Made by a program: the position numbers and the translations under genes. From Candidatus Chloroploca asiatica (GTDB lineage: Bacteria; Chloroflexota; Chloroflexia; Chloroflexales; Chloroflexaceae), in assembly GCF_002532075.1 (NCBI RefSeq), contig NZ_LYXE01000129.1, positions 1 through 35,031 on the forward strand: a DNA stretch of 35,031 nucleotides. Direction: 5' to 3'. Shown in pieces: positions 5,808 through 35,031 of the stretch. How positions within the stretch are numbered: position 1 is the stretch's first letter; every line of letters starts with the position of its first letter. A model generated the notes under the pieces. The model saw only the letters and a list, made by a program, of their open reading frames with translations. It did no database searches and was not told the origin of the DNA.

Positions 5808-6574
5808 CCTTTTTTGGCCGCACCGAGCCAGGGCCGCTTTCGCTCCGTCACGCGCTAGCAACCGTACACCGCGATCAATTCTGGTGGTTGCACTGTGGTG
5901 GCTACGGGCTTGCCACCCTCGTGGGGCTTGGCTTGCCCTTGGCCGCTGGTTTTGTGATGGAAAGCCTCGATAATAGTCGGCGCGGCTTCGCTACCCCACT
6001 GCCGCCCCCCGGCAATATTACCGTTCGATCATTGACCGGTCTCTTTGCCCTGCTCATTGACTTTGCGTTCCTGGTTCTACCGATCTTGATCGGGACGATG
6101 CTGTTGTTTGTCACCGGCATTGCCATGTTGCTCGCTGGAGTCACGGACGAACTGATCATTCAGAGGATCACGAGCTCAGTCGTGTTGGGCACAGGGATGG
6201 TTGTCGTGCTGCTTTTTTTAAGTAGTGTCGCTCCGGCTGGTCGACTTCGCTTTGCGCGTGAGGGCCACATCGAAGATGCCCTGAGGAGCGCAACACTCCG
6301 CTGGACACTGGGGCGTGCGAACCGCCGCACCTTTTTCCAGGCGCGACTGCTCTCACTGGTAGCCTATCTCCCCGCAGTGCTCTTGAGCGTCCTCACCCTC
6401 GGACTCGCACGGATCACCTTCCCAGGGCACATGGTCGTGCTTGGCCTCGGTCTCTGGCTGATCCTCAGCGCCATCATCTATGCGCACCTCGTCGTCGTGC
6501 AACTCTATGTCAGCGCCGAACGTCAGATCCAAGAGCACCAAGTGCAGCAAGATGCGTTACAATGCGAGGTCTAG
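5804..6574 (+). CDS. DUF4013-type integral membrane protein (first of a pair)
   Basis: A 256-residue protein beginning at GTG 5804, four bases before the end of cinA. Four to six strongly hydrophobic segments are visible (for example ALLIDFAFLVLPILIGTMLL, VVLGTGMVVVLLFLSSV, LLSLVAYLPAVLLSVLTLGL and LGLWLILSAIIYAHLVVVQL). The segment GHIEDALRSATLRWTLGRAN between helices resembles the DUF4013 pattern, where a membrane pair flanks an amphipathic loop. No catalytic motif is seen. It is followed by a clearer DUF4013 member, suggesting a paired or heteromeric membrane complex. Function unknown. Confidence 0.75.
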   Translation: MTFFGRTEPGPLSLRHALATVHRDQFWWLHCGGYGLATLVGLGLPLAAGFVMESLDNSRRGFATPLPPPGNITVRSLTGLFALLIDFAFLVLPILIGTMLLFVTGIAMLLAGVTDELIIQRITSSVVLGTGMVVVLLFLSSVAPAGRLRFAREGHIEDALRSATLRWTLGRANRRTFFQARLLSLVAYLPAVLLSVLTLGLARITFPGHMVVLGLGLWLILSAIIYAHLVVVQLYVSAERQIQEHQVQQDALQCEV

Positions 6575-7857: not shown

Positions 7858-8628
7858 TTACGTCTGGGCTTGTGATGCATCGGCAGGTGGCTCGAGCGGC
7901 CCCTGCCGGATATCCTGAGGCGTCTCGATCCAGCCACGGCGCAAAGCAAAGAGTACCGCCTGAGTGCGGTCATTCAGCGACAGTTTGCGCAAAATCGACG
8001 AGATATGGTTTTTGACCGTCTGCGTACTAATATGCAACGAGTCAGCAATCTCTTTGTTACTCCCGCCAGCCGCAATACGTTCAAGCACCTCGATTTCACG
8101 GTCGCTGAGGGGCGTAAAGATCGGCACATCAACCGCTTCGGGGTCAGTGGGCAGCGCTTCGGGCAAACTCCGAAACTGCGTCAAGACCCGACTGGCGACC
8201 CGCGGTTCTTCCAGCAGCACATCATTAATCACATACTCGCCGTGCGCAACGCGGCGCAAGATCTCGATCAACGCCTGTGGCTTGACGTCCTTCGAGCGAT
8301 ACGCGGCAGCACCTGATTGCAACGCGTGAAACGCCTGCTCATCGCTCTCGTGCATGCTCAACATCACCACCCCGAGCCCCGGGTACTGACGACGGACGTG
8401 CCGCGTCAACGCAAGGCCATTCATACCTGGCAAATTCATATCAACCAGCATCACATTCGGTTCGGTATGCGAGTCGGCTTGGGCAAGCCACTCAAGTGCG
8501 GCTTCACCACTCGCAACATCACCGACGATCACGATATCATCCTCACCACTCAAGGCCCAGCGAACCCCCTGGCGAAAGAGCGGATGATCATCAACAACGA
8601 GCAATTTTATGGCAATGTGGGAGGCCAT
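7858..8628 (-). CDS. NarL/LuxR-type response regulator
   Basis: A 256-residue DNA-binding regulator. The receiver domain (about 7-125) has D13/D14, phosphoacceptor D63 (VDMNLPGMNG), S91 and K113. The C-terminal LuxR-type HTH is TPLSDREIEVLERIAAGGSN (172-191), continuing EIADSLHISTQTVKNHISSI. I chose ATG 8628 because AGAAGGA lies nine bases upstream; an in-frame ATG at 8661 has no such site. The start lies inside the end of maf, so the two are probably cotranscribed and coupled. No sensor kinase gene is adjacent, so the signal is unknown. Confidence 0.93.
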   Translation of the reverse strand: MASHIAIKLLVVDDHPLFRQGVRWALSGEDDIVIVGDVASGEAALEWLAQADSHTEPNVMLVDMNLPGMNGLALTRHVRRQYPGLGVVMLSMHESDEQAFHALQSGAAAYRSKDVKPQALIEILRRVAHGEYVINDVLLEEPRVASRVLTQFRSLPEALPTDPEAVDVPIFTPLSDREIEVLERIAAGGSNKEIADSLHISTQTVKNHISSILRKLSLNDRTQAVLFALRRGWIETPQDIRQGPLEPPADASQAQT

Positions 8629-9470
8629 GGCAAAGGTTCCTTCTGTTGGTGTGCCAGCCATGCATAATAACTTGCCGTCGCGTCAGCTAGCCCGGTGACA
8701 CCTGCACCACGCAACAAACGCACCACCGCAGCGAGCGGGAAGCCCACCACCGCAGTGTAACTTCCATAGACCGCTTGGATCAACTGGCCACCCATGCCCT
8801 GCAAACCATAGGCGCCCGCCTTATCACGCGGCTCACCCGTGGCAACATACGCCGTGATCTGGGCTTCGGTCAACGGCGCAAAGACGACCTCGGACATTTC
8901 GATATCCAGCCAGAAAGGACGCCGAGCCGCTGTCGCTAGAACGGCATGAGGAGCTTCGTGGTGCAACGGCAACCAGATTGGCTCTGGCAGAGCCTCATAG
9001 AGTGTGGTCAGATCGGATTCAGGTGGTGTCGCTGACGCAAAAGCCCCCGCGACACACAACCCGGTATAAACACGATGGGTACGTCCTGACAGACGCCGCA
9101 GCATCAGATGAGCTTCAGCATCGTCGCGCGGCTTATTCAACACCTCGCCATCAATCACCACCACCGTATCAGCGCCCAACACGACGGCATCCAGGGCGTG
9201 TGTAGCCACAGCGTGGGCTTTACGCCAGGCAAGCAGCGTCGGATGATAACGTAACGGCATTTCGGCGGTTGGCAGCGCCCCCAACACCTCGGACGGCACA
9301 TCGGTCTCGGCCTCCTCGGCATCAGTGGTCATCACGGTAAAGGTCGCCCCAAGCGTGGCAAGCAACTCGTGGCGACGCGGTGAAGCTGAACCCAGCACAA
9401 GACGGGGCTGACCCGTCTGTTGATGAGCATGCGTCTGATCATTATTTCCAGTTGGAGAAACTCTTGTCAC
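8607..9470 (-). CDS. maf: Maf-family nucleotide pyrophosphatase
   Basis: Maf proteins hydrolyse dTTP/UTP or modified nucleotides to monophosphates. The family motifs are present: SASPRR (28-33), VVLGADTVVVIDGEVLNKPR, LSGRTHRVYTG and DKAGAYGLQG. There is no ATG near the first motif. GTG 9470 gives 287 residues and lies about 38 bases after the predicted transcription start, whereas the in-frame ATG at 9596 lies upstream of the promoter. Typical Maf proteins have about 190-210 residues. The extra length is an N-terminal tail of about 22 residues, roughly 35 residues inserted between VYTGLCVAG and MSEVVFAPL, and a short C-terminal tail. Confidence 0.9.
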   Translation of the reverse strand: MTRVSPTGNNDQTHAHQQTGQPRLVLGSASPRRHELLATLGATFTVMTTDAEEAETDVPSEVLGALPTAEMPLRYHPTLLAWRKAHAVATHALDAVVLGADTVVVIDGEVLNKPRDDAEAHLMLRRLSGRTHRVYTGLCVAGAFASATPPESDLTTLYEALPEPIWLPLHHEAPHAVLATAARRPFWLDIEMSEVVFAPLTEAQITAYVATGEPRDKAGAYGLQGMGGQLIQAVYGSYTAVVGFPLAAVVRLLRGAGVTGLADATASYYAWLAHQQKEPLPWPPTLP

Positions 9471-9515: not shown

Positions 9516-9544
9516 ATCATAACACTTACGTGCGTAGATCGCAA
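9516..9544 (-). promoter_or_regulatory. Promoter of maf
   Basis: On the minus strand TTGCGA (9544-9539) and TATGAT (9521-9516) are separated by 17 bases, predicting a start near 9509. It lies only 8 bases inside the direct repeat bordering the mobile element at 9564-9771. Confidence 0.72.
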
Positions 9545-9563
9545 GATGCAAGACGCTGGCGAA

Positions 9564-9771
9564 CAGGGCTGATGCATCATACGAAACCGGATACAAAAAG
9601 ACGCGCCATCAGGGCACCCGCAAGGGGTGCCCCTACCGGCCGGGGCCGGATCCGGTGTACGGGCACCCCTTGCGGGTGCCCCGGCGGGTACCGGCCGGGG
9701 GCCGGATCCGGTGTACGGGGACCCCTTGCGGGTGCCCTGGCGGGCGCATTCACGGAAGATGCAATCGTCCT
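9564..9771. mobile_element. MITE-like element, copy 1
   Basis: A non-coding element flanked by a 12-bp direct repeat GACGCTGGCGAA (9552-9563 and 9772-9783). Its left end (AGGGCTGATGCATCATACG) and right end (GATGCAATCGTCCT) are imperfect inverted repeats, and it matches the reverse complement of the element at 31439-31606. The first 65 bases differ from that copy at only a few positions. The interior holds palindromes of the GGGCACCCGCAAGGGGTGCC type and a roughly 55-bp tandem duplication (9634-9688 and 9689-9743). No transposase is encoded, so it is presumably mobilised in trans. Confidence 0.75.
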
Positions 9772-9830
9772 GACGCTGGCGAAGCGTCGGGGCAGCAGAG
9801 CCGCCCAAACGAAATGCATGAGAGTGCAAA

Positions 9831-17349: not shown

Positions 17350-17359
17350 GGCTCTTCAT

Positions 17360-17418
17360 CTCAGCTATTCTGGCAAAACGGGCCACCTTCAGTGGCCCGT
17401 TTTGCCAGAATAGCTGAG
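17360..17418. repeat. 27-bp perfect inverted repeat between divergent genes
   Basis: Arms 17360-17386 and 17392-17418 are exact reverse complements with a five-base CTTCA loop. It lies upstream of both the M20-family gene and parA, so it is not downstream of any gene end. The right arm includes the -35 box of the parA promoter. Confidence 0.9.
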
Positions 17419-17430
17419 AGTCTTTACAAT
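17402..17430 (+). promoter_or_regulatory. Promoter of parAB
   Basis: TTGCCA (17402-17407), 17 bases, TACAAT (17425-17430); start predicted near 17437. The -35 is within the right arm of the 27-bp inverted repeat, which could be an operator. Confidence 0.65.
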
Positions 17431-19391: not shown

Positions 19392-19701
19392 GATAGTCCA
19401 ACTACATGTTCTGACATGCTCGTAGCCTTGTCATGCTGAGCGCAGCGAAGCATCTCTGCCGTCGGGACGCCTGAGACCCTTCGTTCTACTCAGGGTGACA
19501 CAACGCTTCCCCTTCCCCAGCCCTCCCCCGCTGGGGAAGGATAAGGACGCCTCCCCGCAGCGGGGCGAGGTTGGGACGGGGCGAGAAGACAAGAAGCTTC
19601 GCTGCGCTGAAAAAGTTAGCGTAGTTGACGTTTTCAACGAAGAAACAGAGTTTGAGGGCGACAGCCCTCAACACAGCCTCGCACGAGGAGAACCATCCAG
19701 C
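19392..19701. repeat. Intergenic mosaic of dispersed palindromic repeats
   Basis: 19429-19456 and 19473-19500 form an imperfect 28-bp inverted repeat (about 20 of 28 matched). The left arm carries GTCATGCTGAGCGCAGCGAA, a kind of intergenic repeat common in many bacterial genomes. It is followed by an 11-bp hairpin (19511-19521 with 19530-19540) and a CCCCGC/GCGGGG palindrome (about 19552-19566). The open frame through this stretch is not coding. The pfkB ribosome-binding site GAGGAG is at 19685-19690. Confidence 0.7.
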
Positions 19702-31407: not shown

Positions 31408-31437
31408 TTTGACGCAAAGGCGCAAGGGCGCAGAGGC
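31408..31437. repeat. Single inverted copy of the 30-bp repeat
   Basis: 28 bases (31408-31435) are the exact reverse complement of part of the third unit of the tandem array at 33151-33289. The array and this copy therefore border the restriction-modification scar in opposite orientation. Confidence 0.8.
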
Positions 31438-31438
31438 C

Positions 31439-31606
31439 TAGGGCGATTGCATCTTCGGTGTAAGCACCCCGCCAAGGCACCCGTAAGGGCACCCGCAAGG
31501 GGTGCCCCTACAGGGCCGGGGGGCGGGCCCGGTGTAGGGGCACCCCTTGCGGGTGCCCTGATAGCGCGTCTTTTTGTATCCGGTTTCGTATGATGCAATC
31601 GCCCTA
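31439..31606. mobile_element. MITE-like element, copy 2
   Basis: A 168-base element with 15-bp perfect terminal inverted repeats, TAGGGCGATTGCATC (31439-31453) and its complement (31592-31606). It is flanked by a direct repeat CGCAGAGGC (31429-31437 and 31607-31615). Inside are GGGCACCCGCAAGGGGTGCC-type palindromes. It is inverted relative to the copy at 9564-9771, with which it shares nearly identical end sequence (ACGAAACCGGATACAAAAAG in reverse complement). The element has landed in the end of a 30-bp-type repeat. Confidence 0.82.
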
Positions 31607-31640
31607 CGCAGAGGCTGATAGGATAGAGATTCGGTGCTGA

Positions 31641-33093: not shown

Positions 33094-33098
33094 CGCGA

Positions 33099-33289
33099 AG
33101 GATTTGACGCAAAGACGCAAAGGCGCAAAGAATCATAATATAAAAATTCTTTGCGCCCCTGCGCCTTTGCGTCAAAATCTCTGCGCCCCTGCGCCTTTGC
33201 GTCAAAATCTCTGCGCCCTTGCGCCTTTGCGTCAAAATCTCTGCGCCCCTGCGCCTTTGCGTCAAAATCTCTGCGCCTTTGCGTCAAAA
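33099..33289. repeat. 30-bp tandem repeat array with inverted partner
   Basis: Four direct units of exactly 30 bases (33151-33180, 33181-33210, 33211-33240, 33241-33270) and a partial fifth (33271-33289). The core is GCGCCTTTGCGTCAAAATCT, with only a few substitutions between units. An inverted related stretch (33099-33133) could form a long hairpin with the first unit across an AT-rich loop. It lies between the methylase remnant and the end of asnS, seven bases from the asnS stop. No unique spacers are present, so it is not CRISPR. Confidence 0.9.
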
Positions 33290-33295
33290 AAGCCG

Positions 33296-34830: not shown

Positions 34831-35031
34831 CCGCAAGGGCATCCGCAAGGGCATCCGCAAGGGCATCCGCAAGGGCACCCGCAAGGGCATCCGCAAGGAC
34901 ATCCGCAAGGACATCCGCAAGGGCATCCGCAAGGGCACCCGCAAGGACATCCGCAAGGGCACCCGCAAGGGCACCCGCAAGGGCACCCGCAAGGGCACCC
35001 GCAAGGGCACCCGCAAGGGCACCCGCAAGGG
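34831..35031. repeat. 12-bp tandem repeat array running off the window
   Basis: About 16-17 contiguous copies of a 12-base unit CCGCAAGGGCAY (variants GGGCAT, GGACAT and GGGCAC). Variants cluster: more T near 34831-34920, uniform GGGCAC from about 34948 on. The unit equals the stem of the mobile element core (GGGCACCCGCAAGGG). The open frame across it is a by-product of a 12-base unit being a multiple of three. Confidence 0.93.

Follow-up and report, generated by a model that had tools for sequence, protein, structure and literature searches.

Candidatus Chloroploca asiatica carries a family of ISAs1-type MITEs that probably inserts at a fixed distance upstream of pre-existing promoters, with promoter-bound RNA polymerase as the likely guide. 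Bacterial transposons are usually thought to land almost anywhere or at a short DNA word. The family was recognized in a stretch of 35,031 nucleotides (here called the window; contig C128 of the 5.84-Mb, 199-contig genome that was searched), where one of its copies lies directly upstream of maf. The same spacing between element and predicted promoter recurs at dozens of copies in three Chloroploca species.

The MITE copies of the window

The features of copy 1 and of the maf locus are as follows, with LE and RE denoting the left and right ends of the element and TIR the terminal inverted repeat.

9564..9772, + strand: MITE copy 1, 209 bp, with LE at 9564 and RE at 9772
9564..9579, + strand: left TIR of copy 1, CAGGGCTGATGCATCA, a degenerate version of YAGGGCGATTGCATC
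9757..9772, − strand: right TIR of copy 1, CAGGACGATTGCATCT read inwards
9553..9563, unstranded: target-site duplication of copy 1, copy on the promoter side, ACGCTGGCGAA
9773..9783, unstranded: target-site duplication of copy 1, far copy
9610..9739, unstranded: interior of copy 1, G+C-rich palindromic units of the GGGCACCCGCAAGGGGTGCCC type, whose number differs among copies
9539..9544, − strand: predicted −35 box of the maf promoter, TTGCGA, first base 19 bp outside copy 1
9516..9521, − strand: predicted −10 box of the maf promoter, TATGAT, after a 17-bp spacer
8607..9470, − strand: maf, Maf family nucleotide pyrophosphatase (PF02545, 175 bits; TIGR00172), with a likely GTG start at 9470

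Copy 1 is flanked by the exact 12-bp direct repeat GACGCTGGCGAA (9552-9563 and 9772-9783), as described in the initial annotation, and the sequence between the repeats starts with CAGGGCTGATGCATC and finishes as the inverted version GATGCAATCGTCCTG. Because the family ends are of the Y...R type (counting the terminal base as the element's, Y on the left and R on the right in 61/68 complete copies), the G at 9772 is read as the last base of the element and the duplication as 11 bp, which places copy 1 in the minority with duplications of that length. The reported match between its ends and an inverted copy at 31439 was recovered, the arms 9565-9636 and 31534-31605 being 94% complementary over 72 nt. 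The closeness of the element to the maf −35 box, given earlier as 20 bases, was also borne out; the distance is 19 bp, and the same offset recurs family-wide. With TTGCGA at offset 19, a 17-bp spacer and TATGAT, copy 1 follows the insertion rule set out below.

The RNA fold of the palindromic interior of copy 1 has a z score of −6.05, showing that a strong hairpin can form, which may insulate or terminate. At maf, insertion would have brought 209 bp, among them a strong palindromic stem, right up to an intact promoter on its upstream side. The −35 and −10 hexamers are untouched, and the three Chloroploca species share them unchanged, including the one without the element; the maf core promoter is therefore independent of the element. 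An effect on maf through the upstream sequence or the hairpin is possible. At the orthologous promoter, the C. mongolica maf locus (L061, 2341-2720) has two complete MITEs in tandem, separated from each other by the 10-bp target. Khr17 has no element at maf, but its site was rejected as an empty site that is not clean: some 80 bp to the right are missing as well, and one GACGCTGG is left.

The second copy of the window comprises the following features.

31439..31606, − strand: MITE copy 2, RE on the left and LE on the right, no promoter at offset 18-20
31429..31438, unstranded: target-site duplication of copy 2, left, CGCAGAGGCC
31607..31616, unstranded: target-site duplication of copy 2, right, CGCAGAGGCT

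The two duplicates of copy 2 are identical at 9/10 bases. C. mongolica lacks this copy at the same site and has one CGCAGAGGCT there, next to a repeat array that differs from the one found here. Copy 2 breaks the insertion rule, the best LE-side promoter score at offset 19 being 0.3. On the RE side, a TATAAT occurs 63 bp from the element, across short repeats that differ between the species.

Size, ends and distribution of the family

The initial annotation described a two-copy family and proposed a genome search for further copies. That search overturned the two-copy reading: the genome has about 100 copies, a number that favors a mobile element. The family ends are of the ISAs1 type, YAGGGCGATTGCATC. 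With one mismatch allowed, the 14-bp end AGGGCGATTGCATC gave 217 matches in the genome vs 1 for the reversed control, a difference that rules out chance; searches for left and for right ends gave 101 and 103 matches, with none in the controls. When 101 left ends (the window copy added by hand) were paired with 100 right ends, 62 copies came out complete and 77 ends stayed single, many of the latter at contig tips. Under looser criteria, the retrieved loci contained 68 complete copies with TIRs, 120-495 bp long. Copy length grows with the number of internal G+C-rich palindrome words (Spearman 0.68). Neither window copy encloses a frame that resembles a transposase, as judged by eye from the list of open reading frames. 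The feature is a MITE: it is short and without a gene, has TIRs and a target duplication, reaches a high copy number and has a transposase-bearing partner.

Exact ends numbered 158, 136 and 93 in the three Candidatus Chloroploca genomes. The other 58 genomes, taken from the same family and order, comprised 8 with one or two exact end matches and 50 with none. A contig search returned at least 63 stretches and, among the matches listed, all were in C. mongolica and Khr17. On the strength of the 61-genome pattern search, the family was not seen outside the three Chloroploca genomes.

Some MITE copies hold long minisatellites with 21- or 12-bp units (L041, 1060-1290; L051, 1-80), and contigs end in arrays of this kind. 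In the window, a 12-bp tandem array of CCGCAAGGGCAT/CAC at 34831-35031 reaches the contig end and uses the same words as the MITE interior; it may represent a broken element or a minisatellite that arose from such an element.

Target duplications, empty sites and repeated hits

At a fixed offset of 10 bp, 34/68 complete copies have flanks identical at 8/10 positions or more, a level reached with a frequency of 0.0013 when flanks of different copies are paired. At 80% identity, lengths of 6-9 and 12-14 bp give at most 3 copies each and a length of 11 bp gives 6. The target duplication is normally 10 bp, and in a minority of copies 9 or 11 bp.

Empty sites were sought by querying 14 predicted ones in C. 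mongolica (G001) and Khr17 (G002); L003 matched repetitive DNA and was set aside. At four of the 14 loci the match ran unbroken across the junction, where the target is present once (L031, L029 and L036 in C. mongolica; L006 in Khr17). Together with copy 2 of the window, this makes five clean filled/empty comparisons with one target copy and no element, so that the empty-site check suggested by the initial annotation supports the duplication at copy 2 and four other copies; copy 1 has no clean empty site. Split matches, consistent with a filled site, were obtained for L006, L017, L020, L028 and L032 in C. mongolica and for L030 and L029 in Khr17. A Khr17 insertion near window position 6530 was considered as a reciprocal empty site and set aside as not clean. 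Since insertions differ between the species, an active source existed after the species had separated. The reading of the element as a MITE with a target-site duplication thus holds, with TIRs, duplications, empty sites and transposase-bearing relatives with the same ends.

Facing TIR ends at most 80 bp apart form ten pairs, with a gap of 10 bp in 6 of them and gaps of 6, 9, 11 and 63 bp once each. Two of the 10-bp gaps (L055 and L134) have both ends from this MITE in the same orientation, for which tandem duplication is possible. At three others (L172, L174 and L076) the neighbor has the 14-bp end with at most 2 mismatches and a different interior, and because the interior differs these neighbors are not explained by duplication. 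The neighbor at the last one (L020) is a weak, doubtful match. The 10-bp gaps fit what is expected when the same externally fixed target is hit twice.

L172 and L174 had been considered as right end-to-right end pairs of this MITE, a reading that was dropped as the neighbor shares only the TIR. TIR-like ends with a foreign interior were noted at L172 (~690-720), L174 (~735-765), L076 (~2228-2258) and L173 (~682-712); two of these neighbors share TTCTTCCGTCGCCGTA, and perhaps they belong to another type of element that has these ends in common with the MITE.

Predicted promoters at offset 19

Promoters were predicted with a matrix of E. coli sigma70 hexamer frequencies and spacers of 15-19 bp. 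Offsets are 0-based from the element end, 19 being the 10-bp duplication plus 9 bp. Before the offset counts, 59/230 ends of this genome and 114/218 of the other two species were left out as redundant or too similar to another flank, and sites of the sister species were taken as independent when more than 15 of 50 bases set them apart from every site of this genome. Expected counts for the slot (score of at least 9, offset 18-20) were derived from the slots at 60-270 bp.

Outward-facing promoter matches at score 9 are concentrated next to the element, with 37 in the first 40 bp vs 2-6 per bin over the following eight; inward-facing matches rise much less, to 6 and 10 in the two nearest 40-bp bins vs 2-4 further out. 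At the 83 own left ends, the −35 box starts exactly at 19 in 25 matches and at 18 and 20 in 4 each. A promoter at 18-20 is present at 28/83 own left ends (0.09 expected) and at 11/88 own right ends (0.27 expected). The independent sites of the two sister species behave alike, with 19/53 left ends (0.21 expected) and 5/51 right ends (0.12 expected). On the LE side, the model-free base profiles of both sets have TTG at 19-21, followed at 39-47 by a block resembling TGnTATAAT.

Complete copies were scored individually; a copy counted when one or both of its flanks had, at the fixed position, a joint promoter score of at least 7.5 or a good −10 box. By this measure 45/68 copies have a promoter, compared with a mean of 2.5 at 24 shifted offsets, and 23/68, copy 2 of the window among them, have none at the offset. 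One MITE (L190, 812-1068) is flanked on either side by a predicted promoter at offset 19. It is mainly the LE that faces the promoter (61/136 LE vs 21/139 RE, p = 8.5e-8), and an outward open frame of at least 90 codons follows 33/37 ends with a promoter vs 64/95 (p = 0.015). The promoter is present in the four empty sites of relatives that were compared; at one of them the spacing in C. mongolica is exactly 19 bp and in this genome, with one extra C, 20 bp. These comparisons show that insertions are anchored to predicted sigma70-type promoters, mainly on the LE side, and that the predicted promoter is older than the insertion.

Promoter complex or DNA word

We propose that an ISAs1-family transposase supplied in trans would capture the upstream face of promoter-bound RNA polymerase, or of polymerase and sigma at the −35/UP region, and that the DNA would be cut around −55/−46. 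In transcription coordinates the duplicated target lies at about this place, which is the upstream edge of the polymerase footprint and the alpha-CTD region. An element arriving there would settle without breaking the promoter or the gene and could thus multiply.

The strongest competitor is direct recognition of the DNA, in which the transposase would read a TTGAC-like word 9 bp past the duplication and polymerase would be uninvolved. The offset does tend to track the −35 box, which starts at 19 in 5/5 cases with a 16-bp spacer and in 8/15 with an 18-bp spacer. Anchoring to the −35 box depends on these few unusual spacers, since in 74 strong cases the positions of the −35 and −10 boxes spread about equally (sd 1.78 and 1.80). 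A good −35 box at 19 is followed by a good −10 box in 76% of 45 cases vs 3.7% of 729 elsewhere, a co-occurrence indicating that the whole promoter is recognized. The −10 box also stands out by itself: 62% of the 94 ends with a good −10 box at 41-43 have no good −35 box at 19 (background, 89% of 238), and the −10 box alone peaks at position 42, at 62/275 ends vs 1.2 per position, with a smaller second −10-like peak at position 37 (16/275 ends). Because the two boxes co-occur and many sites combine a good −10 box with a poor −35 box, the promoter complex is favored over a short DNA word, and direct recognition appears unlikely.

The element might instead aid the promoter, through an end that resembles an upstream element or through insulation by the hairpin, and be kept by positive selection. 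A one-sided orientation preference and a strongly palindromic interior would suit such a role, but the relatives examined have the promoters without the element, and we regard this explanation as improbable. Still less probable is random insertion followed by survival of the harmless or useful sites upstream of promoters. It would account for the similar promoter frequency in copies with a fresh duplication (17/34) and in the others (19/34), and for terminator-like hairpins (stem of at least 12, within 60 bp) at 12/68 insertions vs 52/2137 control windows not confined to intergenic DNA, an enrichment that would place the copies in tolerant space. Harmlessness, however, cannot yield near one-base precision: of the strong matches within 60 bp of own left ends, 25/36 are at offset 19 exactly and none is at 25-60. 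Hairpins were also considered as the primary target and discarded, such stems lying near 12/68 insertions and promoters at 45/68; they are read as the intergenic setting. Hardly credible is the initial suggestion that an ordinary MITE happened to land near maf, where it may alter regulation: the element is a MITE and does lie upstream of maf, but the part played by chance is refuted, since dozens of predicted promoters with no relation to maf show the same offset in the three species.

Transposase-bearing relatives and the wider ISAs1 family

The transposase-bearing parent envisaged in the initial annotation was found in part: relatives with the same 14-bp ends exist, and in both of them the transposase is broken. 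In this genome (L059), identical 14-bp ends surround a 767-bp relic with the start of an ISAs1-type transposase. In Khr17 (L138), the same ends surround 1,231 bp with a transposase in two open parts split by a stop, which match NF033564 (ISAs1 family transposase) with 152.7 and 177.8 bits (cut-off 70) and also PF13808/PF01609. The Khr17 element likewise has a predicted promoter 19 bp outside it (score 15.3). Neither this element nor the relic showed a matching duplication.

Searches of the three draft assemblies with PF13808 gave two hits here, the relic and a divergent ISAs1 copy that contains a stop. C. mongolica gave one, a divergent ISAs1 whose 456-codon frame is open and whose ends are different, and Khr17 one, the stop-interrupted element. 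No intact transposase with the MITE ends was among them. Derivation of the MITE from the insertion sequence by internal deletion is unsupported, the ends differing beyond ~16 bp.

The ISAs1 family has CAGGG-type ends and duplications of 8-10 bp. The MITEs resemble it in their CAGGG-type ends, 10-bp duplications, relatives of 1.2-1.4 kb and matching transposase models, and differ from it in having no gene and in ends that diverge from the relic and the Khr17 element beyond ~16 bp. The 10-bp peak of the MITEs has its counterpart in duplications of 10 bp at 18/22 wider ISAs1 loci. These come from a set of 51 loci (22 from Chloroflexota genomes, 26 plasmid loci of four phyla and 3 from Chloroploca), of which the 22 with clear ends and a duplication were scored; the remaining 29 did not combine a clear TIR with a duplication. 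The set excludes seven short loci of Chloroflexota as well as L239 and L250 from plasmids. L245 was lost to the TIR filter, although it has a perfect 10-bp duplication and its own best promoter score falls at offset 19, and L223 and L233 are less firmly delimited than the other loci.

At the predicted slot, 6/22 loci reach p < 0.05 (binomial 0.0006) and 9/22 p < 0.1 (0.00015); without the Chloroploca element the counts are 5/21 (0.0032) and 8/21 (0.0006). No promoter signal at the slot was seen at 13/22 loci. Among loci with TIRs and no duplication, promoters stand at offset 19 beside L226 (11.8), L229 (8.0) and L236 (8.6). Promoter anchoring may thus reach beyond the genus, with a weaker signal than in the MITEs and perhaps in some ISAs1 lineages only. 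With slightly less than even confidence, we go further and suggest that promoter-anchored insertion could be a property of ISAs1, or of large lineages of it, across phyla, with promoter-bound RNA polymerase as the landing pad. This would be a second, independent bacterial origin of transposition guided by the transcription machinery, exploited by the Chloroploca MITEs at dozens of promoters per genome.

Other features of the window

An array of 30-bp units, TCTCTGCGCC..TTGCGCCTTTGCGTCAAA, occupies 33094-33293, and a single inverted unit of it at 31408-31435 adjoins copy 2, where C. mongolica has a different array. A perfect 28-bp inverted repeat with a 5-bp loop (17359-17419) lies within the upstream part of a parA-like frame. 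About 290 bp between parB-like and sugar-kinase-like frames (19393-19685) are absent in C. mongolica and are possibly another mobile repeat. A T-box leader (2043-2280; Rfam RF00230, 100 bits) extends over the start of a threonyl-tRNA synthetase-like frame; these frames were named by eye. Rfam found only this T-box in the window, outside the MITEs, and a plasmid search by DNA similarity gave no match.

Comparison with known systems and significance

Insertion 15-17 bp upstream of the −35 box of sigmaA promoters has been described for TnGBS/ISLre2 (p-MULT 3) and some of the ISKra4 group (p-MULT 4), both of the Mutator superfamily (PMC3942029). Most p-MULT 3 elements are oriented, and an asymmetry of the ends was proposed to set the orientation (PMC3942029). 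In the available text of that study, fixed-distance promoter targeting is called an atypical trait of two Mutator-type lineages, and ISAs1 has 0 occurrences (PMC3942029). The Chloroploca MITEs work like these elements in their fixed distance upstream of the −35 box and in their orientation preference. They differ in their distance of 19 bp, in being non-autonomous and high-copy, in their Chloroflexota host and in a partner transposase that matches only PF13808/PF01609 and NF033564, not the Mutator superfamily.

In yeast, insertion of Ty1 and Ty3, which are eukaryotic retrotransposons, is steered to the start regions of genes by the transcription machinery, in that case RNA polymerase III. The comparison with the Chloroploca MITEs concerns the way of working only, and no relationship is claimed. 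No report of promoter targeting by ISAs1 or by the Chloroploca MITEs was found in the mainly open literature, including the accessible parts of PMC9208149, PMC3281130, PMC10433421 and PMC11448079, and the main text of the Chloroploca genome paper contains no "transpos", "insertion sequence" or "MITE". What is new here is the insertion rule, for which precedent was found only in unrelated, Mutator-type transposons.

The described species C. asiatica was available only in enrichment culture (PMC6180586). Dozens of natural insertion sites are available for testing promoter targeting, the family ends mark likely promoters in Chloroploca genomes, and the transposase is a candidate promoter-mapping tool. 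That a transposase family unrelated to the Mutator type reaches nearly one-base precision suggests convergence, with the transcription machinery serving as a safe place to land.
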